Source: Vasconcelosia minhoensis LEGE 07310 (GTDB lineage: Bacteria > Cyanobacteriota > Cyanobacteriia > Phormidesmidales > Phormidesmidaceae). Taken from it: a stretch of DNA of 64,000 nucleotides. The notes under the pieces are model-generated. The model saw nothing but the letters and a program-made list of their open reading frames with translations, searched no databases and had not been told where the DNA came from. Positions 4,672-30,470 of this stretch are shown here, piece after piece. The stretch spans positions 1-64,000 of the forward strand of contig NZ_JADEXG010000005.1 of assembly GCF_015207255.1 (NCBI RefSeq). Reading direction: 5' to 3'. The stretch's first letter is position 1. Each line of letters opens with the position of its first letter. The translations under genes were made by a program, and so were the position numbers.

Positions 4672-5811
4672 ATGAAGATAGCTTTAGTGCATGATTATTT
4701 AACCCAAAGAGGCGGGGCAGAGCGTGTATTCGAACTGCTTTGCAAGCGTTTTCCAGAAGCCGATATATTTACTTCCCTATATGCCCCGGAAAGTACCATT
4801 GATCTCAGCAATCGCGCTGTTCAGACCACCCGGCTACAGAGCCTCCCAGGCGCATCGAAGTATTTTAGACTGCTGGCCCCGTTTTACTTTCAGGCGTTTC
4901 AGGCGCTAGACCTGCAAGATTACGACCTGATTCTCAGTAGTACATCCGCTTTTGCCAAGGCGGTGCGGTCTCGCCGGGATGCCAAGCACATCTGCTTTTG
5001 TCACAATACAACCCGCTTCCTCTGGGACACTCGCACCTATTTGCGGGAGTACGGCACTTACCGCCTTCTGTATCCGGCTATTGAGAAGGTGTTTAGCCTG
5101 CTCAGAGATCAGGATTTGCAGTTTGGTCAAACCCCTGACCTTTATATTGCTAACTCGACGACGGTGGCCAAGCGGATTCGCCGAATCTATGGGAAAGACG
5201 CGATCGCGATTAACTACCCGATCGACAGCCGCCGCTTTACCTTCTCGGATCAAAAGGAAGGGTTTTACCTGGTGTCGGCTCGCTTACTGAGTTACAAGCG
5301 GGTAGACATCATTGTGGAAGCCTTCAACTGGTTGGGGTTACCCCTGATCGTCATCGGCGACGGCCCTGAACGCAAGCAGCTTGAGTCTAGAGCTCTGGGG
5401 AACATTCGCTTCCTCGGCCATGTCAGCGATACGATGCGAGCGCAGCTGATGGCCAAAGCCAGCTTCGTGCTGGTGGCAGCCCTGGAAGATTACGGCCTGG
5501 TGCCGATTGAAGCAAACGCCAGCGGCACGCCGGTCATCGCCTACGGGGCCGGAGGCGTGCTAGACACTCAAATTCCGAGACAGACGGGGTTGTTCTTCAT
5601 GCGACAAACGCCAGAAGATTTGCAGGCAGCAGTCCTTGAGGCTAGTCAGATGATCTGGGATCACGCCAAAATTCGAGACCACGCGCTCAGCAATTTTAGC
5701 GAATCCGTATTTTTTGACAAAGTCGATCAGACGGTCAAAGCGGCCTGTGGCGGAGTCTTCTACGGGAACACGTCAGAGCGCGAAAAAGTCAACCATTTAA
5801 TCAGTTTGTAG
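4672..5811 (+). CDS. GT4-family glycosyltransferase
   Basis: Retaining glycosyltransferase of the GT-B fold (GT4), probably adding a hexose such as mannose to the lipid-linked EPS repeat. The 379 residues start with MKIALVHDYLTQRGGAERV, the usual N-terminal acceptor-binding motif. A C-terminal nucleotide-sugar-binding domain has SARLLSYKRVDIIVEAF, then the E-x7-E motif in EDYGLVPIEANASGTPV near residue 270. No membrane span is present, so it should act at the cytoplasmic face. It is the first gene of the plus-strand EPS run and is followed by the chain-length kinase after 54 bases. The donor sugar cannot be told from sequence. Confidence 0.9.
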   Translation: MKIALVHDYLTQRGGAERVFELLCKRFPEADIFTSLYAPESTIDLSNRAVQTTRLQSLPGASKYFRLLAPFYFQAFQALDLQDYDLILSSTSAFAKAVRSRRDAKHICFCHNTTRFLWDTRTYLREYGTYRLLYPAIEKVFSLLRDQDLQFGQTPDLYIANSTTVAKRIRRIYGKDAIAINYPIDSRRFTFSDQKEGFYLVSARLLSYKRVDIIVEAFNWLGLPLIVIGDGPERKQLESRALGNIRFLGHVSDTMRAQLMAKASFVLVAALEDYGLVPIEANASGTPVIAYGAGGVLDTQIPRQTGLFFMRQTPEDLQAAVLEASQMIWDHAKIRDHALSNFSESVFFDKVDQTVKAACGGVFYGNTSEREKVNHLISL

Positions 5812-5865
5812 CAGAGCCGCCCAGCCTACTTCAAACTGCCAGCTATGGGTTAAGTAGAACAAACT

Positions 5866-8091
5866 ATGATTTCGTCCAATATTGATAAAACAACAGAGCC
5901 AGAATTAGGTTACGGTCAGCTGCTCGCGGTTCTAGTCCGACGGGGGAGCTGGTTACTAGGCGTGCTGGCAGTTACTCTGGCAGCAGCGATTGTTTTTACC
6001 CTGAGAGAAGAGCCGACCTATGAAAGCTCAATGCAGCTGCTGGTAGAGCCCAACTATCAGGGAGAACAAGACCCAGACGACCAGTTAAATCGCAGGCCAG
6101 ATCGCAAGTCAGAGCAGGATTACGCAACTCAGATTAATCTGATGCGCAGCTCACAGTTTACGGAACAGGCCGTAGCCCAGCTGAAACCCCGATACCCCGA
6201 TCTGACAGCGAGGGAGGCCCAGAATTCGCTAACGCTGCGTCAGGTGGCTGAAGACGACGTCGATACTCAGATTTTTGAGCTGACCTATGTCAGCGAGGAT
6301 CCGGTCAAGTCGAAGGCATTTCTCGATACGCTCCAGGGGATCTACCAGGACTACAATCTTCAGCAGCAGGAGCTCAGGCTCTCTAAAGGCGTCAGCTTCA
6401 TCAACAGTCAGCTGCAGGCCGCTCGTGAAGACGTCACTCAAACCCAGACTGAGCTAGAGCAGTTCCGCCAGAACCAAAACCTGATTGATCCCCAGCAGCA
6501 GGCGATTGCCCTGACCAATGCACTAAACCAAATTGAAGAGCAGCAGCAGGACATTCGGTCTGAATATTCTGGGGTTCAGGCCCGCTATCAGGCCTTGCAG
6601 CAGCAGGTTAGCCTGAATCCGGGGGCGGCCCTGATGGCAGCCCGGCTGAGTCAGTCTTCGCGCTACCAAACCCTGCTGAATGAGCTACAGGCAACCGAGC
6701 TGGAGCTGGCACAGCTGCGCTCGGTCTACACCGATGCTGACCCCAAAGTTCAAACCCTGCTCGACCAGCGACAAAATCAGCTAAACCTCTTACAGCAGCA
6801 GGTTTCCGAGGTTTTAGGAGATATTCCGGCTGACCTCGACACGTCACCCGAAAGACTTTTGGAACAGGGGCAGCTCAGCCAGGTTGATCTAGAGATCGTT
6901 AACAACCTGGCTGCGGCAGAAGCGGATCTCGTCAGCCTAGAAGCTCGGCAGCAGAGCCTGGCTGCCTCCTCCCAGGATCTGCGGGGGCAGCTAAATCAGT
7001 TTCCCAGCCTGATTGCCCAATACGATCGCTTGCAGCCCGAGTTAGAAATCGGACGGACGGTGGTTGAAAAACTTTTAGAAGCGCAGCAGGCACTCAGAGC
7101 CCAGCTGAGCCGGGGCGGTTTTAGCTGGCAGGTGGTGGAGTTTCCGAATTTAGGCCGAAAGACTGGTCCTAATCCTAAGCAGAATCTGCTTTTGGGCGCT
7201 ATTGTTGGAATCTTTCTAGGCGCGATCGCGGCTTTTATTCGTGAGGCAATTGATGGTGTCGTTCACACCTCCGATGAACTAAAACAGCAAACGGCTCTAC
7301 CGCTGCTGGGAATTGTGCCGAGCCTGCCGTCAGCCAGAGCGGGCCATTTCCCTATCGGCCTATCCCTGTTCTCTGGCCAGAATGGCGCCAATCAAGTTCA
7401 AGCCTACAGCTGGCAGCCCTTTCAGAATGCTCTCGATTTAATATACAAAAATATTCAGTTTCTCAACCCGCTGTCTGCTGTTAAATCTCTGACGATCACC
7501 TCAGCCCTCGAAGGTGAAGGCAAAACCACTCTAGCGGTGGGGTTAGCCCTCAGCGCCGCTCGTGCCAACCAGCGAGTGCTGGTGATTGATGCCGACCTGC
7601 GTCGGCCCTGCCTGCATCGTTATCTCAGCCTGCCTAACGAGCAGGGGCTGGCAGAGAGTTTAGAGAGCAGTTCTATCAGTCCCAATCCGGTTGAGGTGAC
7701 GCTGCTCGGCTCAAATTTCGACGTCTTGACCGCAGGCAGCGTGTCGTCAGAGCCGGTCAGGCTGCTGAACTCCCAGCGGATGCAGACGCTGATGACGACT
7801 TTCGTCGCTCATTATGATCTGGTCATACTCGACACGCCACCAGTTCTAGGCGTGGTCGATGCGGTTCAGGTCGCCTCCTTGACCAGTGGCACCATTCTAA
7901 TCGGGCGACTCGACCGGGTCACTCAGGATGAGCTCAACCAGGCCGCCGAGGCCCTGAGCCGACTTAACGTTCTAGGAATTGTTGCAAATGGTTCTAAAAA
8001 ACGCTCGAATCAGTACACCTACCTGCCTGAACGCAACGGCAACACGCCAACGCTGGGGCTTTTAGCCGCTAGCAGTCCAAGCAGAAACTAG
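5866..8091 (+). CDS. Wzc/GumC-type chain-length determinant and tyrosine autokinase
   Basis: Inner-membrane protein that controls EPS chain length and couples polymerisation to export through the Wza-type channel at 2786. Its 741 residues show an N-terminal Wzz domain with a first membrane span near residues 28-45. A long periplasmic coiled coil rich in Gln and Leu follows (about 160-410). A second span is near 440-460 (LLLGAIVGIFLGAIAAF). The cytoplasmic kinase has Walker A SALEGEGKTT (about 546), Walker A' VLVIDADLRRP (about 572) and Walker B LVILDTPP (about 651). The C-terminus has only a short Tyr pair (YTY), so the phosphorylated tyrosine cluster is sparse. The coding sequence carries HIP1 sites, unlike the genes after 9 kb. 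Confidence 0.93.
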   Translation: MISSNIDKTTEPELGYGQLLAVLVRRGSWLLGVLAVTLAAAIVFTLREEPTYESSMQLLVEPNYQGEQDPDDQLNRRPDRKSEQDYATQINLMRSSQFTEQAVAQLKPRYPDLTAREAQNSLTLRQVAEDDVDTQIFELTYVSEDPVKSKAFLDTLQGIYQDYNLQQQELRLSKGVSFINSQLQAAREDVTQTQTELEQFRQNQNLIDPQQQAIALTNALNQIEEQQQDIRSEYSGVQARYQALQQQVSLNPGAALMAARLSQSSRYQTLLNELQATELELAQLRSVYTDADPKVQTLLDQRQNQLNLLQQQVSEVLGDIPADLDTSPERLLEQGQLSQVDLEIVNNLAAAEADLVSLEARQQSLAASSQDLRGQLNQFPSLIAQYDRLQPELEIGRTVVEKLLEAQQALRAQLSRGGFSWQVVEFPNLGRKTGPNPKQNLLLGAIVGIFLGAIAAFIREAIDGVVHTSDELKQQTALPLLGIVPSLPSARAGHFPIGLSLFSGQNGANQVQAYSWQPFQNALDLIYKNIQFLNPLSAVKSLTITSALEGEGKTTLAVGLALSAARANQRVLVIDADLRRPCLHRYLSLPNEQGLAESLESSSISPNPVEVTLLGSNFDVLTAGSVSSEPVRLLNSQRMQTLMTTFVAHYDLVILDTPPVLGVVDAVQVASLTSGTILIGRLDRVTQDELNQAAEALSRLNVLGIVANGSKKRSNQYTYLPERNGNTPTLGLLAASSPSRN

Positions 8092-8171: not shown

Positions 8172-9107
8172 ATGACCAAATCTCACCTCCTCTTGACCAC
8201 ATCTAGAATTTCTCTTTTAGAAACTCTCGAAGCCGACAGCGGTCAACGTTCTATTCCTAACTATACGCTCAAGTGGAAGGCCCGGCGGCTCTGGGTGAGC
8301 TGCAAATTGAACGAAACTGTTCGCGTTCCAGCGCTTAAGAGCAAACAGTGGCTTCAAGACTGTCTCAATCGGTCTTTTATTCAGGCCGTTTACATTGACT
8401 TGAGTGCTGGTGAAGCTGAACTTAAACAGTGGGCAGAGTCCTGCCATCAGGCTAATCTGCAGGCTTTTGTGCGGCTACCTACGCTGTCGAAATTGCCTCA
8501 AAAGCAATGGCCGCTAAAGTGGGTACTGAAGCGATCCAGCGACTGGCTGGTAGCAGCTCTGTTACTGCTGCTCTTGAGCCCGCTAATGCTTATTTTAGGG
8601 TTTCTTGTTCGGTTTACCTCCTCAGGTCCAATATTTTACCGACAGTGGCGAGTAGGCCATCGGGGCAAGCTTTTCCAAATCATCAAGTTTCGAACTATGA
8701 AAGCCGATGCTGAAAAGCTCCATAATCAGGTCATGGCAAACCAGCCAGGACTCCATAAGTGTAAGGACGATCCCCGAATTACCCAGATAGGACGCTGGAT
8801 GCGAAAATTTAGCTTGGACGAGCTTCCACAGCTCTTGAATGTACTGCGCGGTGAGATGAGTTTAGTAGGGCCAAGACCCTGGGCGCTGTATGATGCCGTA
8901 CGGATTGAACCAGAGCTACAAGGTCGGTTAAATGCAGTACCGGGGATTACAGGGGCATGGCAGGTGACAACGCGATCTCATAACTGCGATTTGGCATCTG
9001 TAAACCGAATGGACTTAGATTATCTTCATCAATGGACTTTTCGAAAAGATTTAAAGTTCCTATTGCTGACGGCACCCAAAGTTTTTACGGGGTTTGGGGC
9101 TTACTAA
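8172..9107 (+). CDS. Priming sugar-phosphate transferase (WcaJ/HepC-like)
   Basis: Transfers a sugar-1-phosphate from a nucleotide sugar to undecaprenyl phosphate and so starts repeat-unit synthesis. The 311 residues comprise an unconserved N-terminal region (about 1-110) and one long hydrophobic segment (WLVAALLLLLLSPLMLIL, about 125-142). The conserved catalytic domain follows, with FYRQWRVGHRGKLFQIIKF, KFSLDELPQLLNVLRG and MSLVGPRP. VPGITGAWQV and DLDYLHQWT complete the family signature. It resembles the cyanobacterial HepC subgroup in having a single span rather than four. It follows the kinase by 80 bases in the same direction. The sugar, glucose or galactose, is not decidable. Confidence 0.92.
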   Translation: MTKSHLLLTTSRISLLETLEADSGQRSIPNYTLKWKARRLWVSCKLNETVRVPALKSKQWLQDCLNRSFIQAVYIDLSAGEAELKQWAESCHQANLQAFVRLPTLSKLPQKQWPLKWVLKRSSDWLVAALLLLLLSPLMLILGFLVRFTSSGPIFYRQWRVGHRGKLFQIIKFRTMKADAEKLHNQVMANQPGLHKCKDDPRITQIGRWMRKFSLDELPQLLNVLRGEMSLVGPRPWALYDAVRIEPELQGRLNAVPGITGAWQVTTRSHNCDLASVNRMDLDYLHQWTFRKDLKFLLLTAPKVFTGFGAY

Positions 9108-9547
9108 ATCGGCTACCGATTGATGTTTTAGCTAGATAAACTCTTTCACTAGTTTCAATATGAACCAGCAAGTCACTGGGACTGCACATTTTCAAAGTTT
9201 AGATAAAGCTCTAAGGGATCATACCAACTTCGAAGATTCACAAACTTGGAGCCAAAATACTACAGTGAGTCAAACGCTTAAAACAGGAATTTTCGTTCGT
9301 AAGTACCAATTCCGGTTGCAAACCTGACATATTAAGTGCATCCCAATCTTGTAAGTCTAGGATTGAGACAGGCTTTCAATACCCTTGATTTGAATATGTT
9401 AAGCCCCAGAATATTTATGCTTATTGCAAAACTGGGATGCACTCAACTTACTCCTAAGATTCAACGAACATGAGATAAGAAAACGAACATGAGACAAGAA
9501 ATTGAAGGCTTTTGATTCCTGTTCTAAAAACGCGACTTAGGATAAAG
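9108..9547. other. Intergenic region with a candidate mini-element and a short direct repeat
   Basis: About 440 bases lie between the priming transferase and the first sulfotransferase, with no credible open frame. The stretch holds an inverted-repeat pair at 9332-9446 (separate entry). It also holds an 18-base direct repeat with one mismatch, at 9464-9481 and 9483-9500 (ACGAACATGAG followed by ATAAGAA or ACAAGAA). The composition becomes AT-rich here and stays so to about 17.8 kb. It may be the join between the older EPS core and an acquired block. Confidence 0.5.
9332..9446. repeat. Candidate mini-element with 23-base imperfect terminal inverted repeats
   Basis: The left arm starts at 9332 and contains AGTGCATCCCA at 9335-9345. 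The right arm contains its exact reverse complement TGGGATGCACT at 9433-9443. Extending outward and inward gives about 19 matches in 23 positions, spanning roughly 115 bases in all. No protein is encoded between the arms. This is the architecture of a MITE or an insertion-sequence remnant. A second copy was not found by eye in the window and no clear target duplication can be set, so mobility is inferred only. Confidence 0.4.
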
Positions 9548-10318
9548 ATGAATCTACAATCAATTAGTGATAAAGCCAAAAAACTTTTAGTCTTAAACAA
9601 ACCACACATATTTTTTATGCGCATTCCAAAAACAGGAAGTACCTCTATCGATCTTGCAATAAGCCGGCATTATCCTGCAAATTCTTATGAAATAGATTCA
9701 TTAAAATCCTTGCAAGCGACTGAAGCAATGCATTACGGTGAAAACATAGATTTCAATCAGTGTCTACAGTTACGAGAAGCATTAGCTGCTTATGCTATGT
9801 CAAAAGACATAAAATACATTTCCGGACACGTACCATATTTGAAGGCTCTTGCAGAGGCTCACCAAGAAAAATACGTATACGTAACTCTATTAAGGGACCC
9901 TGTTAAGCGGTTGATTTCGAAGTATTTTTTTAATTTTCAGAAGTCTGACAATCACTGCAGTATCGACATAAGTTTGTCAGAATATCTCGACTCAGAAAAA
10001 GGTATTCAGTCAGGTTGCGAATACATTAAGTATCTTAAAGGAATATCGAAAGCAAATAGCTACTCTCTTGAATCTGAAATTTCAATAGCGAAAAATAATT
10101 TGTCTAAGTTTAATGTCGTGGGCACTTTGGAAAATCTTGAAAAATTTGTTTCAGACTTTTATGGAAAAACCGGCATTCAATTAAAAATCCCTCACAAAAA
10201 TGCAAGAGAAGGAGCTAATGCAAAACCACAGCTAGATAAAACTACCTTAAAGAATATAGAGAGTGTATGTCGGCCAGACATTGAATTATATGAGTACTTA
10301 ACTCACATCAAAGGCTGA
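9548..10318 (+). CDS. Sulfotransferase (PAPS-dependent, Sulfotransfer_2-like)
   Basis: Predicted to transfer sulfate from 3'-phosphoadenylyl sulfate to the EPS glycan. The 5'-phosphosulfate loop is RIPKTGSTS (about residues 25-33 from this start). The 3'-phosphate-binding strand is TLLRDPVKRLISKY (about 114-127). Length is 256 residues with no signal peptide, so it acts in the cytosol on the lipid-linked repeat. I chose ATG 9548 because AGGA (9539-9542) sits 5 bases upstream; an in-frame TTG at 9512 would add 12 residues. The gene is AT-rich and without HIP1. It is one of two sulfotransferases in the locus and lies directly before the flippase. Acceptor sugar unknown. Confidence 0.85.
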   Translation: MNLQSISDKAKKLLVLNKPHIFFMRIPKTGSTSIDLAISRHYPANSYEIDSLKSLQATEAMHYGENIDFNQCLQLREALAAYAMSKDIKYISGHVPYLKALAEAHQEKYVYVTLLRDPVKRLISKYFFNFQKSDNHCSIDISLSEYLDSEKGIQSGCEYIKYLKGISKANSYSLESEISIAKNNLSKFNVVGTLENLEKFVSDFYGKTGIQLKIPHKNAREGANAKPQLDKTTLKNIESVCRPDIELYEYLTHIKG

Positions 10319-10364
10319 TTATACAAAATAGAGCAGTGTTCTTCATTTAAGCAAGATTTCATAC

Positions 10365-11801
10365 ATGAGTTTACGACAGAAAGCAATTCGAGGAGCAATG
10401 TGGTCTGCAGTAGAGAAATGGGGCGCTCAGCTTGCTTCAACGGCTGTCTTTCTAATTTTAGCTCGACTACTGGGTGCTGAGGCGTTTGGGCTAGTGGCTC
10501 TCGCAAATGTATTTTTAGCCTTTATGCAAATCTTCTTAGACCAAGGATTTGCTCAAGCAATTATTCAAAAAGAGGAACTAAACCCAGAGCATTTGGACAC
10601 AGCCTTCTGGACGAGCGTGCTGACGAGTATTCTGTTTGTTCTAGCGATGTTTACTGGAGCTGGATTTGTCGCGGATTTCTATGATGAGCCAGACCTAGCG
10701 CCGATTATTCGATGGATGTCGATTAGCTTCTTTTTTGGAGGAATGAGTAGCGTTCAGTCAGCCATACTGAAGCGGAACATGCTGTTTAAAGCTTTTGCGA
10801 CTCGTTCTATAATTGCAACGGTGGCTTGTGGTATAGCTGGAGTGTGTGCGGCAGTATTAGGTTTGGGAGTGTGGAGTTTAGTTGTTAAAGAACTTGTCTT
10901 TGGCTCGTCTGGAGCTATTTTGCTCTGGAGTATTAGTGACTGGCGTCCTAGACTTCGTTTTTCTGCCTCACACTTTAGAGAACTATTTTCTTTTGGCATT
11001 AATATTATTGGCTTTAACTTCCTAAACTTCTTCAATAGACGATCAGATGATATGTTAATCGGATATTTCTTGGGACCAGTGTCGCTAGGCTACTACAGTG
11101 TTGCCTATCGCTTGCTTCTCATTATGATAGATCTTTTAACAAGAGTTACCTCGCAAGTGGCGCTGCCAGTTTTTTCAAGAATGCAGAGAGAACCGGCCAA
11201 AATGCGCAGCGCATTTTACCAAGTTACTAAGCTCACTAGTCTTGTTTCATTTCCAGCATTTCTAGGAATGGCAGTGCTTGCTCCAGAAATTGTATACTGC
11301 CTTTTTGGAGAACAGTGGATGCCAAGCGTACCTGTAATGAGGATTTTAGCTTTTATAGGTATTCTACAATCTGTTTCTCAGTTCAGTGGAACTATACTAT
11401 TGGCCTCGGGTAACCCTTCTCGGAGACTGGCAATACAGTTCTTGAATGCCTCATGTAATGTACTGACTTTTATCTTTGTAGTTCGTTGGGGTATTGTGGC
11501 TGTAGCACTAGGCTACGTATTACGTGGATATATCCTATCGCCAATACCTCTAATTGTTATTAGAAATATAATTAAGATAAGCCTGACAAAGTACTACTCA
11601 CAGTATGCACTGCCATTGTTTTCATCGGCAATAATGGTTACGACAATCTTTGGGGTCAAGAGTTTATTGAGTCATACACTAAACTCATACGCAGAGCTAA
11701 CAATCCTTGCACCTCTCAGCATTCTGACGTATACGATTATAGTTCTTCTGATATCACCAGATCTTCTCGGCCAAATTAAAAGACTTATTATTTCAGCCTA
11801 A
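10365..11801 (+). CDS. Wzx-type repeat-unit flippase (MOP superfamily, WzxC-like)
   Basis: Integral membrane protein expected to flip the undecaprenyl-linked EPS repeat unit across the inner membrane. It is 478 residues long with about 12-14 hydrophobic segments spread over the whole length. The N-terminus MSLRQKAIRGAMWSAVEKWG and the following ARLLGAEAFGLVALANVF and FLDQGFAQAIIQ are typical of the WzxC/lipopolysaccharide-biosynthesis branch of MOP transporters. It starts 46 bases after the first sulfotransferase and is followed by the acyltransferase. It supplies the flipping step between cytosolic assembly and the Wzy-like polymerase at 18819. Confidence 0.9.
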   Translation: MSLRQKAIRGAMWSAVEKWGAQLASTAVFLILARLLGAEAFGLVALANVFLAFMQIFLDQGFAQAIIQKEELNPEHLDTAFWTSVLTSILFVLAMFTGAGFVADFYDEPDLAPIIRWMSISFFFGGMSSVQSAILKRNMLFKAFATRSIIATVACGIAGVCAAVLGLGVWSLVVKELVFGSSGAILLWSISDWRPRLRFSASHFRELFSFGINIIGFNFLNFFNRRSDDMLIGYFLGPVSLGYYSVAYRLLLIMIDLLTRVTSQVALPVFSRMQREPAKMRSAFYQVTKLTSLVSFPAFLGMAVLAPEIVYCLFGEQWMPSVPVMRILAFIGILQSVSQFSGTILLASGNPSRRLAIQFLNASCNVLTFIFVVRWGIVAVALGYVLRGYILSPIPLIVIRNIIKISLTKYYSQYALPLFSSAIMVTTIFGVKSLLSHTLNSYAELTILAPLSILTYTIIVLLISPDLLGQIKRLIISA

Positions 11802-11827
11802 ATCAACTGAGAGTTGGAGGCGAATGC

Positions 11828-12421
11828 ATGAAACAGATTGATACATGGAAAAGTTTTATAAAGAGGAAATTAGCGAAAAATATTGCAAAATATTGCACCT
11901 ATGGAGAATCTATTATCTTAATGGAAAAAAATGAGCATTTAAAAGAACGACTTAAGTTCTGTGGCAGGGGTGTTGTCATCAACGGACAAGTGACGGTTGT
12001 TTGTCCAGAGAATATTGTTATTAAGGATAACGTCCACATAGGAGAAAACTCTTATTTAGATGGCAGAGGAAGTATTGAAATCGGCGAAAACACTCATATA
12101 AGTCGGAACTTCGTTGTTCATTCATCAAGCCATAATTACAACGGTACAAAATTGCCTTACGATGACACTTATGTGCTTAAGCCTATTAAAATTGATAGAA
12201 ATGTTTGGGTTGGAACGCATGTTGTTTTAGTTCCTGGGGTTTCAATAGGTGAAGGAGCAATTATAGGAGCAGGTACAGTAGTCACCAAGGAAGTTCCGGA
12301 ATTCAATATCTTGGGTAGTCAACCTGCCAGAACTCTAAAGCTTCGTAATATTGAGCATTATAGACAGACCGACTTTTTGAAAAGATATGGTGGCGTTTCC
12401 GGCAGAGACATCAACTTATAA
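11828..12421 (+). CDS. Left-handed beta-helix acyltransferase (hexapeptide family)
   Basis: Probably O-acetylates an EPS sugar using acetyl-CoA. The 197 residues have a short helical N-terminus, then hexapeptide repeats forming a left-handed beta-helix (about residues 45-175). VCPENIVIKDNVHIGEN and WVGTHVVLVPGVSIGEGAI are clear repeats, and the VHSSSHNY segment contains the likely catalytic His. The C-terminal cap GSQPARTLKLR is standard for maltose/galactoside-acetyltransferase relatives such as WcaF. It is preceded by GGAGG 8 bases before ATG (11815-11819), a strong ribosome site. It lies 26 bases after the flippase, consistent with an operon. Confidence 0.88.
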   Translation: MKQIDTWKSFIKRKLAKNIAKYCTYGESIILMEKNEHLKERLKFCGRGVVINGQVTVVCPENIVIKDNVHIGENSYLDGRGSIEIGENTHISRNFVVHSSSHNYNGTKLPYDDTYVLKPIKIDRNVWVGTHVVLVPGVSIGEGAIIGAGTVVTKEVPEFNILGSQPARTLKLRNIEHYRQTDFLKRYGGVSGRDINL

Positions 12422-12430
12422 ACCGCGTCC

Positions 12431-21799: not shown

Positions 21800-22963
21800 A
21801 TGCACAATCGATATATTAGTTTGTTTATTCCTAACCTTGACGGGGGAGGGGCTGAGAGAGTCATGCTGCATCTTGCTGAAGGGTTTGCCAATCGTGGATT
21901 TAAAGTAGATCTTGTTGTCGCACAGGCCCAAGGGGCCTATCTCTCAAAGATTCCAGAAACTATACGGCTGGTTAACTTAGATGCAAAACCTCCTATCATC
22001 TTATCTAAGACGCTAGCCTTGAAGCAGTATTTAAAAAGGGAACAGCCAGCGTTCTTAATATCAACTCTGGATATTCTCAGCGCTGCAACCTGGGCAAGAC
22101 GTCTGGCAGGTGAAGATACAAGTACACAAATCATTATGTGTGTGCAGACAAACCTTTCCCAGCAGTTTAATGATCGCCATAGTACGCTGATGCGAAAGTT
22201 CAAGTGGTCTGCGGTGCAACATTTCTATCCCTGGGCCGACGCCATTGTTACGGCCTCAGCGGGAATCGCTCACGATCTGGAGAAAAATGCCAGAATTTCA
22301 ATGCAGCAGATGAATATAATACATAATCCTGTAGTTACACCAGATTTTAATCAAAAAGCCCAGGAAAATGTGGTTCACCCTTGGTTCTCACCAGGTCAAC
22401 CTCCAGTCTTGCTGGGAGTTGGCCGGATTGTTAAGCAAAAGGACTTTACCACTCTAATAGAGGCTTTTGCCCTCGTTCGTCGTCGTCATCCAGCACGGTT
22501 GATGATTTTGGGTGACGTTGACCCGCGTGAGCCTCAGGTCAAACCCGATTTGGAGTTACTGATTGATAAATTTAAGCTAAAAGACGACATCGAGTTTCTG
22601 GGATTTGTCGAAAACCCCTATGCTTACATGGCAAAAGCCAATGTTTTTGTTTTATCCTCTATATATGAGGGATTTGGTAACGTGGTAGCGGAAGCGATCG
22701 CGACCGGGACACCGGTTGTATCTACTGATTGTGAGAGCGGCCCGGCTGAAATTCTAGACAATGGCCAGTATGGTACGCTTGTCCCAGTTGGTGATTGTAA
22801 GGCAATGGCCGATGCCATCGTGAAGACCCTCAATCAACCACTAGATCCTGACCTGCTTAAGCAGCGATCGCAGTCCTTCACCATCGATTGCATCGTTCAC
22901 CAGTATCTTGAGGTGTTGAATAATTTACGGTCAATTCAACATCCAACCGCTGGAGCTGTATAG
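21800..22963 (+). CDS. GT4-family glycosyltransferase
   Basis: A 387-residue GT-B transferase. It starts ISLFIPNLDGGGAERVMLHL, which has the N-terminal motif of GalNAc- and hexosyl-transferases of EPS and O-antigen loci. The donor site is formed by GVGRIVKQKDFTTLIEAF and the E-x7-E segment EGFGNVVAEAIATGTPVVS. TDCESGPAEIL follows, as in the same subgroup. AAGGAG (21787-21792) sits 7 bases before ATG, a strong site. It overlaps the next gene at TAGTG (stop and GTG start share one base), so translation is coupled. HIP1 sites return in this gene. Confidence 0.9.
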   Translation: MHNRYISLFIPNLDGGGAERVMLHLAEGFANRGFKVDLVVAQAQGAYLSKIPETIRLVNLDAKPPIILSKTLALKQYLKREQPAFLISTLDILSAATWARRLAGEDTSTQIIMCVQTNLSQQFNDRHSTLMRKFKWSAVQHFYPWADAIVTASAGIAHDLEKNARISMQQMNIIHNPVVTPDFNQKAQENVVHPWFSPGQPPVLLGVGRIVKQKDFTTLIEAFALVRRRHPARLMILGDVDPREPQVKPDLELLIDKFKLKDDIEFLGFVENPYAYMAKANVFVLSSIYEGFGNVVAEAIATGTPVVSTDCESGPAEILDNGQYGTLVPVGDCKAMADAIVKTLNQPLDPDLLKQRSQSFTIDCIVHQYLEVLNNLRSIQHPTAGAV

Positions 22964-24027
22964 TGCGAGTCCTACACATTCTTAACCATATCCGAAAAGT
23001 AGGCAATGGTATTGTCAATGTCGCAGTAGATCTAGCTTGCCTTCAAGCTCAAGCCGGGCATCAGGTGAGTATTGTGTCTGGCGGTGGCGAATATGAAACC
23101 CTATTGACTCAATACGAGGTTGAGCATTTTTTGCTAAATCAAACCCGAACCTGGCCTAATTTGGCTCGTGCAGCTGTGCAGTATCGGACTATTGTTCGAC
23201 AGGTGCAGCCGGACATTGTACATGCCCATATGATGACAGGAGTCATATTGGCTCGTGGCTTGAAACTTTGGAGCCAATACGGCTTAGTCGCAACGGTTCA
23301 CAACGAGTTTCAGGAGAATGCTAAGCTGATGAGGCTGGCCGACCGCGTTATTGCTGTGAGTCAGGCCGTAGCTGAGTCAATGCAGAACCGTAGGATGCCT
23401 GCACACAAGTTGCGAGTTGTAACCAACGGCACGATCCAAAGCCCTCGGTTAGGCTTACTGAAAGAATGTAAGCCTGCTTTACTACATCGTCCTGCTATCA
23501 CAACTGTAGCAGGCATGAATTTACGTAAGGGAATTGCTGAGCTCATTGAAGCTTTTGAGCTCATTGCTTTAGATTTCCCAGAGGCTCATCTTTATCTTGT
23601 TGGTCATGGCCCCGATCAAAAAAAATTTCAGAAGCAGGCCCGTCAGACCCGCGTGGCTAACCGTATCCATTTTGAAGGTTTTCAGCCGGACCCTCGGGCT
23701 TATTTGCTATCTTCAGATGTGTTCGTTCTAGCTTCTCATCGTGAACCTTTTGGACTTGTTATTTCAGAAGCTCGAGAATCAGGTTGTGCAATTATAGCGA
23801 GCAATGTAGATGGAATTCCTGAAGTCTTAGAGCACGGAAGAGCGGGACTGTTAGTTCCGCCAGCAAACAGTTCAGCCCTGGCTACTGCTATTGTAGAGCT
23901 ACTCGAAAATTCCAACAAACTAAATTATTGGAGAACCCAGGCCCAACAAAACTTGGACTGGCTCAACGTTTCTCGTACCTCTACTGAGACCCTAAATGTG
24001 TACCATGAACTAAGGCAAGTGAACTAA
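22963..24027 (+). CDS. GT4-family glycosyltransferase
   Basis: A 354-residue GT-B transferase that starts at GTG 22963, sharing one base with the upstream stop. Signature parts are MRVLHILNHIRKVGNGIVNV, HAHMMTGVILARGL in the acceptor half and TVAGMNLRKGIAELIEAFEL at the domain border. The E-x7-E segment is EPFGLVISEARESGCAI, followed by VDGIPEVLEHGRAGLLVPP. No membrane span is visible. It belongs with the previous gene in one transcription unit. The sugar donor is unknown. Confidence 0.9.
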   Translation: MRVLHILNHIRKVGNGIVNVAVDLACLQAQAGHQVSIVSGGGEYETLLTQYEVEHFLLNQTRTWPNLARAAVQYRTIVRQVQPDIVHAHMMTGVILARGLKLWSQYGLVATVHNEFQENAKLMRLADRVIAVSQAVAESMQNRRMPAHKLRVVTNGTIQSPRLGLLKECKPALLHRPAITTVAGMNLRKGIAELIEAFELIALDFPEAHLYLVGHGPDQKKFQKQARQTRVANRIHFEGFQPDPRAYLLSSDVFVLASHREPFGLVISEARESGCAIIASNVDGIPEVLEHGRAGLLVPPANSSALATAIVELLENSNKLNYWRTQAQQNLDWLNVSRTSTETLNVYHELRQVN

Positions 24028-24158: not shown

Positions 24159-25298
24159 ATGAAGATCTTGTTTCTGGATCAGAGTGGAAAGCTTGGGGGT
24201 GCTGAACTTTGCTTAGCTGACATTACCCAACATTTCAGACAAACAAGCCTGGTAGGAGTCTTTTCTAAAGGCCCTTTCCCTGACTACCTGCGCCAGCTCA
24301 ATATTCCCGTTAAAATCCTGGCTGACCAAACCTTAAATGTTCAAAAAGCCAGCGGTTTATTGGCAGTATTCAAAAGTCTCAATCGGCTAATTCCCCTAAT
24401 AACGGCGGTTACCCAGCTCAGCAAAGGCTTCGACCTGGTCTACGCCAATACCCAAAAGGCCCTGGTTGTGGGCGCTATTGCCAGCTTTGTCAACGGTCGC
24501 CCCCTCGTTTATCATCTTCACGACATCGTCTCCCCCGATCATTTCAGCTCTACTAACCGCCGCATCATCATCACACTTGCTAACCGGGCTGCACTAATCA
24601 TTGCCAACTCTCAGGCTAGTCGGGATGCTTTTATTGCCGCTGGAGGACGTGCCGATACTATCCAGATTGTCTATAATGGTTTCCGGCTAGAATCCTATCA
24701 GATTAGTGCTCCCCAGCAATCTGTCATCTGCAACAGCTTTGTTCTAAACGATAAATTTGTCATCGGACACTTCAGCCGCCTCGCTCCCTGGAAGGGACAG
24801 CACATTCTGATTAAGGCTTTAGCACATTGCTCTGAAAAAGCGGTTGCCCTTATTGTTGGCGATGCTCTGTTTGGCGAAGATGACTATGCTACTTATCTGC
24901 ACTGCCTCGTCAAGAACCTGAATCTACAGCACCGAGTCCACTTCTTGGGTTTTCGCTCTGACGTACCTGCCCTCATGAAAGCCTGCGACCTGATTGCGCA
25001 TACCTCTACTGCCCCTGAACCCTTTGGTCGCGTTATCGTTGAGGCTATGCTGTGCAATCGACCAGTCGTTGCTGCTGGTGCTGGCGGTGCCGTAGAACTC
25101 ATCGAGCAGGGCCGTACTGGTTGGCTTACTCCCCCCAGCGATGTCCCAAAACTCGCTGACATCATTACTACGGTCTACACTCAGCCTGAGATAGCAAGGG
25201 CAATCGCCCAAAAAGGGTACTTACAAGCTCAGCAGAGATTCAATCTAGCGAATACTAATGAGAAAATTGAAACTCTTCTATATCAAATAAGGTCTTAG
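24159..25298 (+). CDS. GT4-family glycosyltransferase
   Basis: A 379-residue GT-B transferase. The N-terminus MKILFLDQSGKLGGAELCL has the usual glycine-rich acceptor loop. YHLHDIVSPDHFS is in the acceptor half. FSRLAPWKGQHILIKAL marks the donor domain and EPFGRVIVEAMLCNRPVVA carries E-x7-E. It starts 131 bases after the preceding GT4 gene and ends one base before the next frame (TTG 25300). The codon composition is mixed and slightly richer in C than the genes around it. It is probably one of three sequential GT4 steps in this half of the locus. Confidence 0.9.
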   Translation: MKILFLDQSGKLGGAELCLADITQHFRQTSLVGVFSKGPFPDYLRQLNIPVKILADQTLNVQKASGLLAVFKSLNRLIPLITAVTQLSKGFDLVYANTQKALVVGAIASFVNGRPLVYHLHDIVSPDHFSSTNRRIIITLANRAALIIANSQASRDAFIAAGGRADTIQIVYNGFRLESYQISAPQQSVICNSFVLNDKFVIGHFSRLAPWKGQHILIKALAHCSEKAVALIVGDALFGEDDYATYLHCLVKNLNLQHRVHFLGFRSDVPALMKACDLIAHTSTAPEPFGRVIVEAMLCNRPVVAAGAGGAVELIEQGRTGWLTPPSDVPKLADIITTVYTQPEIARAIAQKGYLQAQQRFNLANTNEKIETLLYQIRS

Positions 25299-25299
25299 A

Positions 25300-26796
25300 T
25301 TGTATGGAAACTATCAACGGTTATCTACAATGCCTCAACTAGAGTTTTACCCAATCTGTCGGAAAGACTATTCTACCCTGCCAAAAATGCTTCTAGCTCT
25401 TGGTATAGGCGTTACTTTGATGCATCTAGCTTTTTTAAAACCTTTAATATGGGACCTTGATGGTAACGAGGTCCTCAAGGTTTCCTATTCGCTGGTCACT
25501 GACCAAAGCTTCAGCCTACCGCCAGGGTCTGGTGGAATGTTGGGGCCTGATGGACAAAGCTATTCAATTCGATATCTATTACTGCCCATTCTAGTTGCTC
25601 CTTTTGTAGCAATCGGGATCCTTATCAGTTCGTGGCTAGGCTTGCCGTGGATTTCTACAACGGGTATTTTTGCAGTTAGCTCAACGGTTTTACTCACAGC
25701 CTCTACAACGGTTTTGGTTGCTTTATTGGCCCTGAAGCTCGGCAGTACTAAGCAAGGAGCCTATGTTGCAGCTCTTGGTTTTGCGTTTGGAACTATAGCC
25801 TTAACCTATGCTCAGACATTATTTTCCGAACCGCTGCTGGCGTTTCTAATCATTGCCTGTGTTTATTTGGCCTTTGATGAATCCCGGAGTTGGATAGGCT
25901 GTAGCTTGCTGGCGATGCTTTCTATTTTGGCCAAACCAGCAGGAATCATCGTTGGCCCAATCATATCTATCTACTTTTTATCAAAACGGTACCAAATTTC
26001 TGCTATCTTAGGACCTATCATATTTCCCGCTTTAGGAATCCTTTTATACCTGACCTATAACTACCTAAGGTTTGGCAATCCGTTAATAACAGGGCAGCCC
26101 TTATCCGTAGGACTGAGTGCCTTCGAGATGCCCCAGCGTCTGCTTGGATTTCTGTTTGGATTTGGCATGGGTGGCGGCTTGATCTGGTATTGCCCACCTG
26201 TAGCAATGGCTGTCGTCGGATTTTTCAAAGCATCAAAAAGCAAACCATTAGAAGCTGCCGTACTGGCAGAGATAGGATTAGGCTTTTTAATGCTACATTC
26301 ATTCTGGCATTGTTGCGGTTGGGACTGGGGACCCCGGTTTCTAGTGCCCCTGCTCCCCCTGCTTCTTGCCCTGACTGGGCTGATTGACTACAGAAGTCGC
26401 AAATGGCTTGTTGCTCTATGTATTGTAGGATTTATAGTTAATGCTCCAACATTGGTTTCATTTTACCAGCGGTATTACTGGGAGCTTGAAGCCACAGGTC
26501 ATCAGGTCTGGCAACTGAGTCTCTGGACTAACATAGCCGATGCTCCCTTGTCCAACGTCTGGGCAGCGACATTTCGTCAAATTAGTGAAGCCATGGTAAC
26601 CGACGTGAAAGTTTTTTTGGCAGGAAGTGATTCTGTCACATTAATGCAAATTTTACCCGTGTGGTGGTGGATACTGCCTGCCATTGGAGTGCCTGTATGG
26701 TGTGGTGCGACCGTCGCAGGACTACTACTTGCCACAGGTATAGGGGTTTTGTGGAGAGGCTGGCCAAAACTAGAGCCGTCCGCCCCATCGATTTGA
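25300..26796 (+). CDS. Multispanning GT-C-like glycosyltransferase or EPS membrane protein
   Basis: A 498-residue integral membrane protein with about 11-13 spans. An N-terminal periplasmic loop, after the first span, contains an acidic pair in IWDLDGNEVLKV. This is the arrangement of GT-C enzymes that use polyprenyl-phosphate sugars (PMT/ArnT relatives). Conserved-looking loops include FGTIALTYAQTLFSEPLLAF and LHSFWHCCGWDWGPRFLVPL; the latter is typical of the superfamily (WGPRFL). I would call it a GT-C-like protein without naming the sugar. TTG 25300 begins the frame one base after the upstream stop; ATG 25330 is an alternative. The gene converges on the exostosin-like gene with a 63-base gap. 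Confidence 0.7.
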   Translation: MYGNYQRLSTMPQLEFYPICRKDYSTLPKMLLALGIGVTLMHLAFLKPLIWDLDGNEVLKVSYSLVTDQSFSLPPGSGGMLGPDGQSYSIRYLLLPILVAPFVAIGILISSWLGLPWISTTGIFAVSSTVLLTASTTVLVALLALKLGSTKQGAYVAALGFAFGTIALTYAQTLFSEPLLAFLIIACVYLAFDESRSWIGCSLLAMLSILAKPAGIIVGPIISIYFLSKRYQISAILGPIIFPALGILLYLTYNYLRFGNPLITGQPLSVGLSAFEMPQRLLGFLFGFGMGGGLIWYCPPVAMAVVGFFKASKSKPLEAAVLAEIGLGFLMLHSFWHCCGWDWGPRFLVPLLPLLLALTGLIDYRSRKWLVALCIVGFIVNAPTLVSFYQRYYWELEATGHQVWQLSLWTNIADAPLSNVWAATFRQISEAMVTDVKVFLAGSDSVTLMQILPVWWWILPAIGVPVWCGATVAGLLLATGIGVLWRGWPKLEPSAPSI

Positions 26797-26859: not shown

Positions 26860-28122
26860 TTATGGATTTAGCTTGCTGGCAATAAATTTACCTACAGCGC
26901 TTTCTGAACATTTTTCATCCCACCAGTCTACTGATTTCTGGTGCATTTCTTGTAGAAAGGTCTCGTCCTCAATCTTTTCCAATAGCCTTCCAAGCTCACC
27001 CCATTGCTTGATATGGATAACTGGAGACCCATCATAAAACCATCTAGATGGTAAAGCCTCTGTCACAACGATACATCCATATCTTAAAGCTTCAAAAAAT
27101 CGATATGTCTCGAATGTAGCACCTCGGGGAATCAGGCAAATCTTTGTATTCATCATGTCTTCTGAATACCTCTTTGAGTCCGTATTGTTGGTCGTGTGAA
27201 ATCCATTTGTTATAGTGAGCTTAATATTAAGGCTGGGGTTCGTAATCATTAGTTTCTGGACACTTTCTAACATTTTTTTTCGCGAAATAATTTTAGGATC
27301 CTGAAGCCAGTATTTAAACGACCTTATTGAGTACGTGTGATTGACAAGGCTACCGTCGAAAGAAATATCATAGATGCGCTTGCTGATATCGCGGATGGGT
27401 AGTTCGATCTGCTTATAGTAGCCTAGTGGAATGTCATAAATGGGGCCGGATTTGGCCTTTGTTACCGCACTTCTAAAACGAGAGAATCTGTATTTTAATA
27501 ATCCCGGAAGGCCGATTATACATATCTTTATAAATCGTAGCGTTGTCAGGAGATTTAAATAAGAAGGATTGAATAAGAGATTACATCCAAGCATAGGACT
27601 GACACCATAGCATTTAAATATAGCTTTTACCTTATCGAAGTATCGTGGAATACGACTCCACTCATCGTCAAGTACAATTGCAACCACGTTTTCCCCGTAC
27701 GATGGCAACTGATTTACATCTGTGGTGATATAAAAAACGAGTCCCTTAAGCTTTAGCTCTTTCTCCATTGCCTCAAGCACTCTGCCATAATAAACACAGC
27801 TTGGCGATTTACTTTTGGTGGCGTCTAGAGAATTCCACGGAATCGGCCTTTTTCCCTGCTGGTAGAAAAAATATTGATTCGACGGAGAGTGGCATGGTGG
27901 CATGATTCTATTGCGCTTATAGGGAGTATGTAGAGCCGATAAAGATGATGACGGGTCGAAGTGAACAGGAACGTGAAACCAGTAAGCGTGGGATGCGTCA
28001 TACAAAAGGTACCACAAGTGCCGAAAGCTATGAATTGACCCTTCTGAGGTCATTCTCTGCCCCACAGTCACGTTTGAACTAGCCAAGGTAACTAGCGATA
28101 CAATTGTGCTCACTGTCAGCAT
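26860..28122 (-). CDS. Exostosin-like (GT47) family protein
   Basis: A 420-residue protein on the strand opposite the other EPS genes. The C-terminal third carries the exostosin signature: TKICLIPRGATFETYRFFEALRY overlaps the donor site, followed by GCIVVTEALP and VIHIKQWGEL. In eukaryotes this family makes heparan-type and xyloglucan linkages; bacterial members are found in polysaccharide loci. The N-terminus has a hydrophobic stretch (VSTIVSLVTLASSNVTVG) that may be a weak anchor. Its AT-rich composition resembles the 9-17 kb block. It converges with the GT-C-like gene, and its promoter must lie in the 464-base gap before 28587. Confidence 0.75.
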   Translation of the reverse strand: MLTVSTIVSLVTLASSNVTVGQRMTSEGSIHSFRHLWYLLYDASHAYWFHVPVHFDPSSSLSALHTPYKRNRIMPPCHSPSNQYFFYQQGKRPIPWNSLDATKSKSPSCVYYGRVLEAMEKELKLKGLVFYITTDVNQLPSYGENVVAIVLDDEWSRIPRYFDKVKAIFKCYGVSPMLGCNLLFNPSYLNLLTTLRFIKICIIGLPGLLKYRFSRFRSAVTKAKSGPIYDIPLGYYKQIELPIRDISKRIYDISFDGSLVNHTYSIRSFKYWLQDPKIISRKKMLESVQKLMITNPSLNIKLTITNGFHTTNNTDSKRYSEDMMNTKICLIPRGATFETYRFFEALRYGCIVVTEALPSRWFYDGSPVIHIKQWGELGRLLEKIEDETFLQEMHQKSVDWWDEKCSESAVGKFIASKLNP

Positions 28123-28586
28123 CCTTTTACATCAACGATCAGCATGCTCTACTATCGCCGCCGGAATAAGTCTGGCCATCTCTAGCAGCAGACGAAAATG
28201 GTGAAACGATTGGTCGTGAGCAACTTCAACTCCGTTACTCCGTGTAGATATCTACATCTAATTTGATATGCGGAAACGACTCACATAAACTTTACGTAAA
28301 TTTTCCGTTAGCCTCCTAAAGTCTTCAGTGCTACAAATATTATTGTCTGCGACTGTAAATGCTCTGTCCTTCGGACTAATTTACTAAAAGCATCTAGGGG
28401 CTCAGAGGGACTCAGTGTTCAATAACTCTAAGACTTTAGCTGAATAGATCAAGCAGCTATTGGATGCTCTTTTGAAGTTAAAAACCAGCTGTGTCTTAAA
28501 CCTAAAATACAGAAGCAATAAACTTTCGCATTACAGCACTTGGATTATTTTTCTCAGCGAAACACAACGATAACGGATGCAAGACC
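28123..28586. other. Divergent intergenic region
   Basis: This 464-base gap lies between the exostosin-like gene (leftward) and the GH-A/CBM gene (rightward). It should contain promoters for both. No open frame, palindrome or RNA motif stood out on reading. Confidence 0.4.
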
Positions 28587-30470
28587 ATGAGCATTTCAAC
28601 GACTCTCTCATCTAAAAAGGCAAAAAAAGCCAACAATTTTATCGACTCAATTGGTGTTAATATCCACCTACATTACCAAGATAAAGTCTATAGCAAAAAG
28701 TACGACGATATCATTAAGCCCAGGTTGATTGAGCTCGGTGTTCGCCATGTCCGTGATGGAGCAATGACCTATGATGGGATCAGTCAAAACACCTTTTACT
28801 ATCGGCGCGTACGCGATCTAGCTAATCAAGATATTCAGTTCACTTTTATTGCCCCAGCCCTGAAGACAAGTTGGGGTGAGCCGACAAACTACGACCTATT
28901 AGACGAAGTATATCAGTGGAGCAATGGCGCAATAGCTGCTTTTGAGGGTACTAATGAGCCTGAATTGCAAAACGTTTCTACATGGGTAGAAGACACACGC
29001 AGTGGACAAAAGCAGCTATACCAAAAGGTCAAAAGCGATCCGCTACTAAGCCATATTCCAGTAATTGGGCCATCAGTGACCGTTCTAAATAATGGAATTA
29101 ACAAGGTTGGTGATCTCTCGCAATGGTTAGACTATGGAAATCTCCACAACTACTTCAGTAGTTATAATCCTGATACTGATGGCTGGGCTTCAAGTATAAA
29201 GGGCTATGGAAGCGTCGAATGGAGCCTTTCTGAGGCTGAAAAGGTGAGTGGGAACAAGGCTGTCATGACCACAGAGACGGGTTGGGACAACAGTCTACCA
29301 TCGGCTAGTGGAAGTCAAGGCATTCCCGAGGATGTAACGGCGAAGTATATCCCTCGTCTGTTTTTAAATCAGTTCAATGAAGGCATTGTTCGAACCATAG
29401 CCTATGAGCTGATTGACATTGGAACGAATCCTAAAGTGCGAGACCAAAATCTTGGTCTATTACGAAATGATGGCTCACCAAAGCCAAGCTTTATCGCTCT
29501 TAAAAATCTGATTTCCCTCCTCGAAGACCCCGATCCCAACCTAAATTTTACCTCGGAGAAACTAACCTTTGCCCTAGAGGGCGAAATAGAAGGTATTGAG
29601 CATACGCTACTTCAAAAGAGCAATGGCGATTTCTATCTGGCCCTGTGGCAGGCTGAGTTGGGCTGGGATGCCAGCAATCAACAGTATCTGAAAGTAACAG
29701 ATCAGGCAGTAACGCTATCCCTGCAGGATATTCAACAGGCAACGCTGTATCAATTCGATTCACAAGGTAGCGTGAAGACTTCGGCAGGCGCGATCGCAGA
29801 TAATCAGCTAAAGCTAAGTATTAAAGACACTGTCACAGTTATCAAACTGACACCAGAATCAGCTAGGTCTGCTCCAGTGTTAGCTCAATCATTGCTTTCT
29901 CCTGTGAGCTACGAAGCTGAAGGCTTAACACTCAGCGGTGGCTATGTAATTGAATCTCACCGAGGTTCCAAAGCATCCAATGGCCAGTTCATTGCTTTGA
30001 GGAAAGGAAATAATGGAGCTGCTGCTGGGTTCTTTCAAGGAGATGCAGGTATCTACGATGTAAAAGTTCATTACTTTGATGAGAATGATGGAGTCTCATC
30101 TGCTTCAGTTACAGTAGCAGACAACACAAAGTCTTTCCTGCTCGACAAAGATTTACCTGCTAACTATGCGAGTTCTAAAGCTTTGACTAGTCGCGTCACT
30201 CATCAGGACTTAGTCCTCAATCCAGGTGACCGTTTTGAGCTTAAAGGAACGAAGAACAGAGGTGAATATGTTCGATTTGACCGCATCGAGTTTATTCCAG
30301 TGGGTCGTCCAGTAGATAGCATTGTGGCAGGTCGCTCAAGTTTGGGTTCAACGTCTAACCAGGCTCTGTTCTCAGGCTTGGATAAAACTGCGTATAGCGG
30401 TTTACTTGATTACAAAGGGACTGAGGCTGGCATTGCGTCAGTTTCTACCGACACCGTGAGTCTGTTGTGA
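28587..30470 (+). CDS. GH-A clan hydrolase-like protein with C-terminal carbohydrate-binding module
   Basis: The 627 residues hold a TIM barrel (about 16-315) with the GH-A pair GTNEPE (Glu124) and TTETGW (Glu230). A beta-sandwich linker follows. A CBM6/35-like module runs from SYEAEGLTLSGGYV (441) to RFDRIEFIP (572). The last 50 residues are Ser/Thr/Ala-rich and start with VAGRSSLGSTS. No signal peptide is visible at the N-terminus (MSISTTLSSKKAKK), although a polysaccharide-binding enzyme should be secreted. The C-terminal tail may be a type I secretion signal, since the broken copy at 32150 keeps a similar tail. It is a paralogue of the lipoprotein at 20381. The likely substrate is the EPS itself. 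Confidence 0.8.
   Translation: MSISTTLSSKKAKKANNFIDSIGVNIHLHYQDKVYSKKYDDIIKPRLIELGVRHVRDGAMTYDGISQNTFYYRRVRDLANQDIQFTFIAPALKTSWGEPTNYDLLDEVYQWSNGAIAAFEGTNEPELQNVSTWVEDTRSGQKQLYQKVKSDPLLSHIPVIGPSVTVLNNGINKVGDLSQWLDYGNLHNYFSSYNPDTDGWASSIKGYGSVEWSLSEAEKVSGNKAVMTTETGWDNSLPSASGSQGIPEDVTAKYIPRLFLNQFNEGIVRTIAYELIDIGTNPKVRDQNLGLLRNDGSPKPSFIALKNLISLLEDPDPNLNFTSEKLTFALEGEIEGIEHTLLQKSNGDFYLALWQAELGWDASNQQYLKVTDQAVTLSLQDIQQATLYQFDSQGSVKTSAGAIADNQLKLSIKDTVTVIKLTPESARSAPVLAQSLLSPVSYEAEGLTLSGGYVIESHRGSKASNGQFIALRKGNNGAAAGFFQGDAGIYDVKVHYFDENDGVSSASVTVADNTKSFLLDKDLPANYASSKALTSRVTHQDLVLNPGDRFELKGTKNRGEYVRFDRIEFIPVGRPVDSIVAGRSSLGSTSNQALFSGLDKTAYSGLLDYKGTEAGIASVSTDTVSLL

Follow-up and report, generated by a model that had tools for sequence, protein, structure and literature searches.

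A Wzx/Wzy polysaccharide locus carrying two different sulfotransferases in the cyanobacterium Vasconcelosia minhoensis LEGE 07310

Cyanobacterial sulfotransferases are mostly located in polysaccharide gene clusters (PMC8205485), in systems that combine standard polysaccharide machinery with sulfotransferases (PMC13125312). In the case of synechan, a Wzx/Wzy locus with two sulfotransferases yields a sulfated exopolysaccharide (EPS) (PMC8205485), and the literature surveyed holds one cyanobacterial sulfated polysaccharide with a worked-out gene cluster. A locus that fits this picture lies near the start of contig NZ_JADEXG010000005.1 of Vasconcelosia minhoensis LEGE 07310, in the 64,000-nucleotide stretch analyzed here (positions 1-64000, the window), which is part of a 5.26-Mb draft genome of 161 contigs. 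The stretch 2786-30470 holds the full gene set of a Wzx/Wzy polysaccharide locus along with two intact sulfotransferases, which belong to separate Pfam families, PF03567 (ST2) and PF13469 (ST3), so that two sulfotransferases of distinct subfamilies stand inside one Wzx/Wzy cluster, as in loci of the synechan type. Priming transferase, flippase (Wzx), polymerase (Wzy, by position and homology), polysaccharide co-polymerase and outer-membrane polysaccharide exporter (OPX) occur together, the combination that marks Wzx/Wzy-dependent EPS synthesis. An earlier note on this DNA had proposed such a locus with two different sulfotransferases, and the proposal is borne out: every gene it named is open and in place (Table 1), and the Pfam and NCBIfam families agree, the weak points of assignment being Wzy (Pfam below cut-off), the gene resembling GT-C glycosyltransferases (without a Pfam match) and the exostosin assignment (slightly under the cut-off). 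Neither tRNA nor Rfam matches were found in the window. These genes are best read as a locus for a sulfated exopolysaccharide of the Wzx/Wzy type, with the sulfation of the product and all sugar specificities predicted from sequence, and we consider it probable that a Wzx/Wzy route makes and exports a sulfated, acylated heteropolysaccharide from a conserved frame with an exchangeable center.

The frame, comprising the exporter, glycosyltransferase (GT) GT4a, Wzc, the priming enzyme, Wzy, the glycosidase GHA1 and GT4b to GT4d, is conserved across cyanobacteria. Its two flanks, OPX-GT4-Wzc-HepC-type priming transferase and Wzy-(PslG-like glycosidase)-three GT4, recur in at least six other cyanobacterial genera. 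Of 77 genomes, 13 held close homologues of the priming enzyme, counting the window genome itself, and in several of these 13 the same contig has a GH-A homologue at a distance of 12-21 kb. The common layout is OPX, GT4a, Wzc, HepC-type priming enzyme, a flippase or ABC exporter, a variable center and Wzy, after which some or all of GT4d, GHA1, GT4b and GT4c follow in varying order; in some relatives OPX is cut off or lies beyond the fetched stretch. Open reading frames (ORFs) of relatives were called mechanically and named by BLAST against the window's own genes, unrelated genes showing as unknown, and identities to the window are reciprocal-best values for seven genomes. With eight genes on each side, a reciprocal-best homologue of at least 40% identity is found in 45 of 56 gene/genome cells for the frame and 5 of 56 for the center (Fisher p 6e-15), a value to be taken only as a guide because the cells are not independent, the genomes are related and the division into frame and center was drawn after the loci had been viewed. 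No description of a variable-center HepC-type locus in cyanobacteria was found in the literature surveyed. Three genomes of one genus (G002, G015 and G033, loci L159, L160 and L166) have nearly the same locus; G002 differs from G015 and G033 mainly beside Wzx, where a MurB-like gene replaces the acyltransferase and the pyruvyl transferase is different, possibly through small-scale cassette exchange.

The slot right after HepC is itself variable. It holds Wzx in G002, G015, G033, G023 and G063 (50-68% identical to the window Wzx), with a sulfotransferase coming after Wzx in G023, and a HepA-type ABC transporter in G229, G013, G070, G065 and G026; one frame thus has two export solutions. At 988.6 bits the G229 exporter is over the NCBIfam HepA cut-off of 725, its neighbor passes HepC, and the transporters of the other four are 59-66% identical to the G229 protein. 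Within the window genome no protein scores over the HepA cut-off (best match 570 bits against 725), and with Wzx in the slot, HepA-type export at this locus was rejected.

Within this frame the center spans 8.3 kb (9512-17771) and has about 39% GC, compared with about 55% for the genome, and its genes stand in the order ST2-Wzx-acyltransferase-ST3-GT2a-toroid-GT2b-GT2c, where the toroid is a protein of predicted (alpha/alpha)6 fold. GC content is 36-44% across 9-18 kb, 49-55% just before, and 54-58% in stretches elsewhere in the genome. Likewise, GC at third codon positions (GC3) is 0.30-0.38 in the genes from ST2 to GT2c, 0.60-0.62 in GT4a and Wzc, 0.49 in the priming gene, 0.57 in GT2d and 0.52 in Wzy. 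The right edge is a step from 0.379 in GT2c to 0.571 in GT2d, two genes separated by only two bases, and the left junction is a 404-bp spacer of 38% GC, within which lies the MITE-like element of Table 1. A 19-nt repeat (AACGAACATGAGAYAAGAA) occurs in two tandem copies at 9463-9500, just upstream of ST2. The gene order of this block recurs in other settings: Wzx-acyltransferase-ST-GT2-toroid-GT2 in Hyella patelloides and Wzx-ST-GT2-toroid-GT2 in Myxosarcina and Mastigocoleus testarum, with different frames and with identities to the window of 44-46% for ST3, 52-58% for GT2a, 51-56% for the toroid and only 31-33% for Wzx. Low GC3 (0.29-0.30) also marks the toroid, GT2b and the following gene of G229, whose 5' frame genes have 0.43-0.51. 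The cassette-bearing loci of Hyella, Myxosarcina and Mastigocoleus hold no close relatives of the window Wzc or Wzy, so that the window locus has the look of a mosaic, a widespread frame combined with a cassette that also occurs in other places. The pattern is reminiscent of serotype-like cassette exchange in which sulfation would be a trait of the cassette, and the block at 9.5-17.8 kb is probably an exchangeable cassette that would have arrived by horizontal transfer. The unusual combination seen by the earlier note stands only in part: the toroid-acyltransferase-sulfotransferase group recurs, and the GH-A enzyme, listed there as part of it, is in the form of GHA1 a conserved frame element of this locus type in many cyanobacteria. 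A unique combination was rejected, because frame and cassette each recur elsewhere.

Both sulfotransferases retain the motifs for binding 3'-phosphoadenosine 5'-phosphosulfate (PAPS), which read PKTGSTS with RDPVKRLIS and PRSGTTLL with REPLDVVASL, one pair in each protein. ST2 aligns with heparan sulfate 2-O-sulfotransferase (E 1.1e-4) over a stretch that includes a GHV segment, the histidine of which we take to be the catalytic base, and ST3 is similar to polyketide and tyrosyl-protein sulfotransferases. A strong match for adenosine 5'-phosphosulfate (APS) kinase (227.7 bits) is present in the genome. The genome also has a second polysaccharide locus (L038, G000:C73) of 39% GC, whose genes include several glycosyltransferases, an ABC transporter and one that resembles sulfotransferases, and in a family relative a polysaccharide locus (L030, G033:C11:1520001-1540000), one of those with an ST2 homologue, holds some seven sulfotransferase-like genes in 20 kb, as judged by sequence starts and clustering.

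In the mechanism envisaged, the HepC-type enzyme would prime the lipid carrier, cytoplasmic GT2 and GT4 enzymes would lengthen the repeat unit, on which the toroid may act with its GT2, and the two PAPS-dependent sulfotransferases and the acyltransferase would decorate it, most likely as a lipid-linked unit before flipping by Wzx. Wzy would then polymerize the flipped unit, Wzc and Wza would carry the polymer out, and the membrane-anchored PslG-like GH-A enzyme might trim or clear polymer in the periplasm.

Several points weigh against a sulfated product or a transferred center. Sulfotransferase acceptors can also be lipids, proteins or small molecules, and seven further sulfotransferase matches lie elsewhere in the genome. 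The assignment of Wzy depends on position and homology, and low GC alone is no proof of transfer, because a high AT content is frequent in polysaccharide loci, among them the second EPS locus of this genome with 39% GC. Finally, one of the synechan sulfotransferases, XssE, is dispensable (PMC8205485), so that the presence of a sulfotransferase is no proof of its use. The alternative that survives best, though unlikely, is that the polysaccharide is unsulfated or rarely sulfated and that the two proteins of sulfotransferase fold use another acceptor or are unexpressed. Frames that carry no recognized sulfotransferase are indeed common (G063, G070, G026, G229), and single sulfotransferase-like genes occur away from polysaccharide genes elsewhere in the window genome; however, ST2 and ST3 flank Wzx within the gene run with PAPS motifs kept, linkage of ST3 to Wzx, GT2a and the toroid is seen in four cyanobacterial genera, and five family relatives have ST2 homologues (31-39% identity) within polysaccharide loci that also carry a GT2b-like gene. 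Somewhat less likely is a product that stays attached to lipid, protein or lipopolysaccharide as a glycan instead of being released: a Wzc-type co-polymerase and a Wza-type exporter frame the locus, a hallmark of exported or capsular polymers, and there is precedent for a PslG-like glycosidase in an EPS locus, even if O-antigens are also built by Wzx/Wzy systems and the Wzy candidate falls in the Pfam family of O-antigen ligases and polymerases.

The toroid is the least-known part of the locus. The window protein belongs to no Pfam or NCBIfam family, and a single-sequence search of the PDB returned no match. A scan of genome contigs with a five-sequence alignment recovered 55 loci, usually beside a GT2, in cyanobacteria, haloarchaea, Bacteroidota, Firmicutes, Chloroflexota and others; within cyanobacteria the toroid is present in 5 of 390 genomes, with an adjacent GT2 in all five; a relative, Cf. 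Phormidesmis sp. LEGE 11477 (NZ_JADEXO010000025.1), carries a match. A profile of 41 sequences weakly matched cellobiose 2-epimerases (E 2e-5, profile positions 47-132). The model built from these sequences, which replaced an earlier five-sequence model (pLDDT 81, best match GH76), has as its best folds the AGE-family epimerases and isomerases, then GH76, with TM mostly about 0.55-0.67; the values for AGE enzymes, mostly 0.56-0.67, point to the (alpha/alpha)6 toroid fold of that family. By sequence the protein does not group with AGE enzymes: it has no Pfam hit, one of the 41 homologues weakly matches PF07221, and hhalign against cyanobacterial AGE proteins was not significant, in a weak test, since the AGE alignment was shallow (four close sequences). 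A true AGE epimerase was rejected on this disagreement of fold and sequence, as was a C5-epimerase, given that matches to C5-epim_C are weak and confined to 9 of the 41 homologues (best E 8e-4). Sixteen residues, including R42, W47, N98, Q103, N159, Q161, H204, Y240, N244 and D338, are invariant in all 41 sequences, which suggests an active site.

A recognized sulfotransferase accompanies the toroid in only 11 of 50 loci, as detected by a model built from few sequences that will miss divergent ones; a general link between the two was rejected on this count, and the link is therefore mainly cyanobacterial. A GSYAARN-type motif is enriched in toroid-adjacent GT2s (24/39 against 11/72 other GT2s, p 1e-6), a suggestive figure only, the pattern having been picked by eye from the same data. 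Tentatively, the toroid and its GT2 partner could be a hitherto undescribed glycan-assembly module common to bacteria and haloarchaea, in which a cytoplasmic enzyme of (alpha/alpha)6 fold would modify a sugar, or an intermediate linked to lipid, passed to or from the GT2 and which in cyanobacteria would travel with flippase and sulfotransferase as an exchangeable sulfation cassette. A uronate-rich, glycosaminoglycan-like polymer, with the toroid epimerizing a sugar and ST2 sulfating the uronate at the 2-O position, as C5-epimerase and HS2ST do in heparan sulfate, is very improbable, for although the ST2 alignment with its GHV segment, the weak C5-epim_C matches and a toroid fold resembling 2-epimerases speak for it, the window toroid itself matches no epimerase family, its best folds are AGE enzymes and GH76 rather than C5-epimerase, there is no general linkage between toroid and ST2 (ST3 being the sulfotransferase that tracks the toroid), and no UDP-glucose dehydrogenase was recognized in the locus.

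A seven-sequence GH-A profile found PslG in the PDB (E 2.7e-5), the aligned part being only the C-terminal half of the catalytic domain, and the clan GH-A glutamates, E124 (acid/base, in NE) and E230 (nucleophile, in TE), are invariant in all seven sequences and kept in both window proteins; neither GHA1 nor GHA2 has a Pfam hit, GH39 included. In GHA2 a signal peptide is not evident by eye, and its C-terminal module is often repeated in large ORFs of relatives. Downstream, 32179-32454 and 32529-32792 (both +) are stop-interrupted stretches 54-55% identical to GHA2 residues 448-626, a decayed duplicate. At this 3' end, the syntenic loci show no gene in a clearly matching position for GHA2, the GT47 gene or the GT-C gene. 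Farther on, at 43964-45931, lies an ORF whose two halves look by eye like repeats of one glutaminase-like domain.

Table 1. Features of the polysaccharide locus, in order along the window
Feature	Positions	Strand	Basis and relatives
OPX, Wza-type outer-membrane polysaccharide exporter	2786-3943	-	PF02563 80.3 bits, SLBB domains; divergent from main gene run; beside GT4a in relatives
GT4a, frame	4672-5811	+	PF00534; 64-71% identity, reciprocal best, 7/7 relatives
Wzc-type co-polymerase with ATPase/kinase domain, frame	5866-8091	+	Wzz, AAA_31; TIGR01007 128.8 bits (cut-off 108); 42-49% in 7/7 relatives
Priming sugar-phosphate transferase, HepC type, frame	8172-9107	+	PF02397 198.7 bits; NF045514 HepC 248.6 bits (cut-off 140); 52-61% in 7/7 relatives
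Element resembling a miniature inverted-repeat transposable element (MITE)	9332-9446		115 bp, 23-nt inverted repeat, left cassette edge; three other genome copies, 74-78% identity
ST2 (Sulfotransfer_2)	9512-10318	+	PF03567 48.8 bits; GC3 0.305
Wzx flippase	10365-11801	+	PF13440 320.5 bits; 67-68% to post-HepC Wzx in G002, G015
Hexapeptide-repeat acyltransferase	11828-12421	+	PF00132; nearest WcaF-type, below cut-off; 58% to same-place Hyella gene
ST3 (Sulfotransfer_3)	12585-13505	+	PF13469 118 bits; 44-46% to sulfotransferase between Wzx/LbH and GT2a in Hyella, Myxosarcina, Mastigocoleus
GT2a, upstream partner of toroid	13548-14513	+	PF00535; 52-58%, same position, three cyanobacteria
Toroid, uncharacterized (alpha/alpha)6 family	14510-15601	+	Model pLDDT 94.6 (mean), AGE-like fold; 55 loci in bacteria and archaea
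GT2b, downstream partner of toroid	15725-16642	+	PF00535; GT2b-like gene adjoins toroid in 5/5 cyanobacterial genomes found
GT2c, last low-GC cassette gene	16791-17771	+	PF00535; GC3 0.379
GT2d, first gene past cassette	17774-18724	+	PF00535; GC3 0.571; 48-52% reciprocal best in G063, G070
Wzy polymerase candidate, frame	18819-20279	+	PF04932 26.8 bits, below cut-off 31.7; 43-77%, same position, 7/7 relatives
GHA1, PslG-like GH-A glycosidase with lipobox (LFAC, by eye), frame	20381-21682	+	46-65% in G002, G015, G063, G070
GT4b, frame	21800-22963	+	PF13692; 58-77% in five relatives
GT4c, frame	22963-24027	+	PF00534; 55-79% in four relatives
GT4d, frame	24159-25298	+	PF00534; 55-60% in four relatives
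Membrane protein, possible GT-C glycosyltransferase	25300-26796	+	No Pfam match; weak NF047440 (putative glycosyltransferase family), E 8e-6, below cut-off
GT47/RXYLT1-like glycosyltransferase	26860-28122	-	PF24785 RXYLT1_C 35.5 bits, over cut-off; PF03016 Exostosin 31.6 bits, under 33.4
GHA2, second GH-A protein	28587-30470	+	35% identity to GHA1; C-terminal module also repeated in other proteins

If sulfation is indeed a swappable cassette in a conserved frame, sulfated and unsulfated polymers would be predictable from the center of the locus, and the making of new sulfated polymers by cassette exchange could be put to the test. The toroid, which has homologues in many bacterial phyla as well as in archaea, is a clear unknown enzyme for assay.

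Among known systems, Psl of Pseudomonas shares with the window a GH-A glycosidase encoded within an EPS biosynthesis locus, although the resemblance to PslG is a partial alignment with no GH39 hit. The locus of Hyella patelloides LEGE 07179 (L050) shares the cassette order, a second sulfotransferase, a Wzc and a GH39 protein, whereas its Wzc, Wzy and gene order outside the cassette differ and its second sulfotransferase is Sulfotransfer_3-like, not Sulfotransfer_2. The synechan (xss) cluster of Synechocystis PCC 6803 has in common with the window Wzx/Wzy, a priming enzyme, several glycosyltransferases and a pair of sulfotransferases from distinct subfamilies within a single cluster (PMC8205485), but it is on a plasmid, lacks an OPX gene of its own and has the XssQ/R/S regulators, whereas the window has the HepC-type frame, the Wza neighbor and the PslG-like enzyme, a comparison drawn by description and not from Xss sequences. 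The likeness to synechan extends to the sulfotransferases and Wzx/Wzy only and not to the layout, since by its frame the window locus is of the HepC type, akin to loci with a HepA exporter. No regulator of the XssQ/R/S kind was recognized beside the locus: the genes scanned at 1-34 kb included no recognized STAND or two-component gene (the Xss sequences themselves were not searched), and at 52-57 kb there are a GGDEF regulator and a large hybrid kinase. Loci of the HepC/HepA (HEP-like) type, such as that of Leptolyngbya ULC077bin1, share the HepC-type enzyme after GT4a and Wzc as well as the same Wzy, and the Leptolyngbya locus also has the toroid-GT2b pair. The window enzyme clears the HepC cut-off and a HepA exporter is lacking; in place of the HepA ABC exporter the window has Wzx, with two sulfotransferases and an acyltransferase added.

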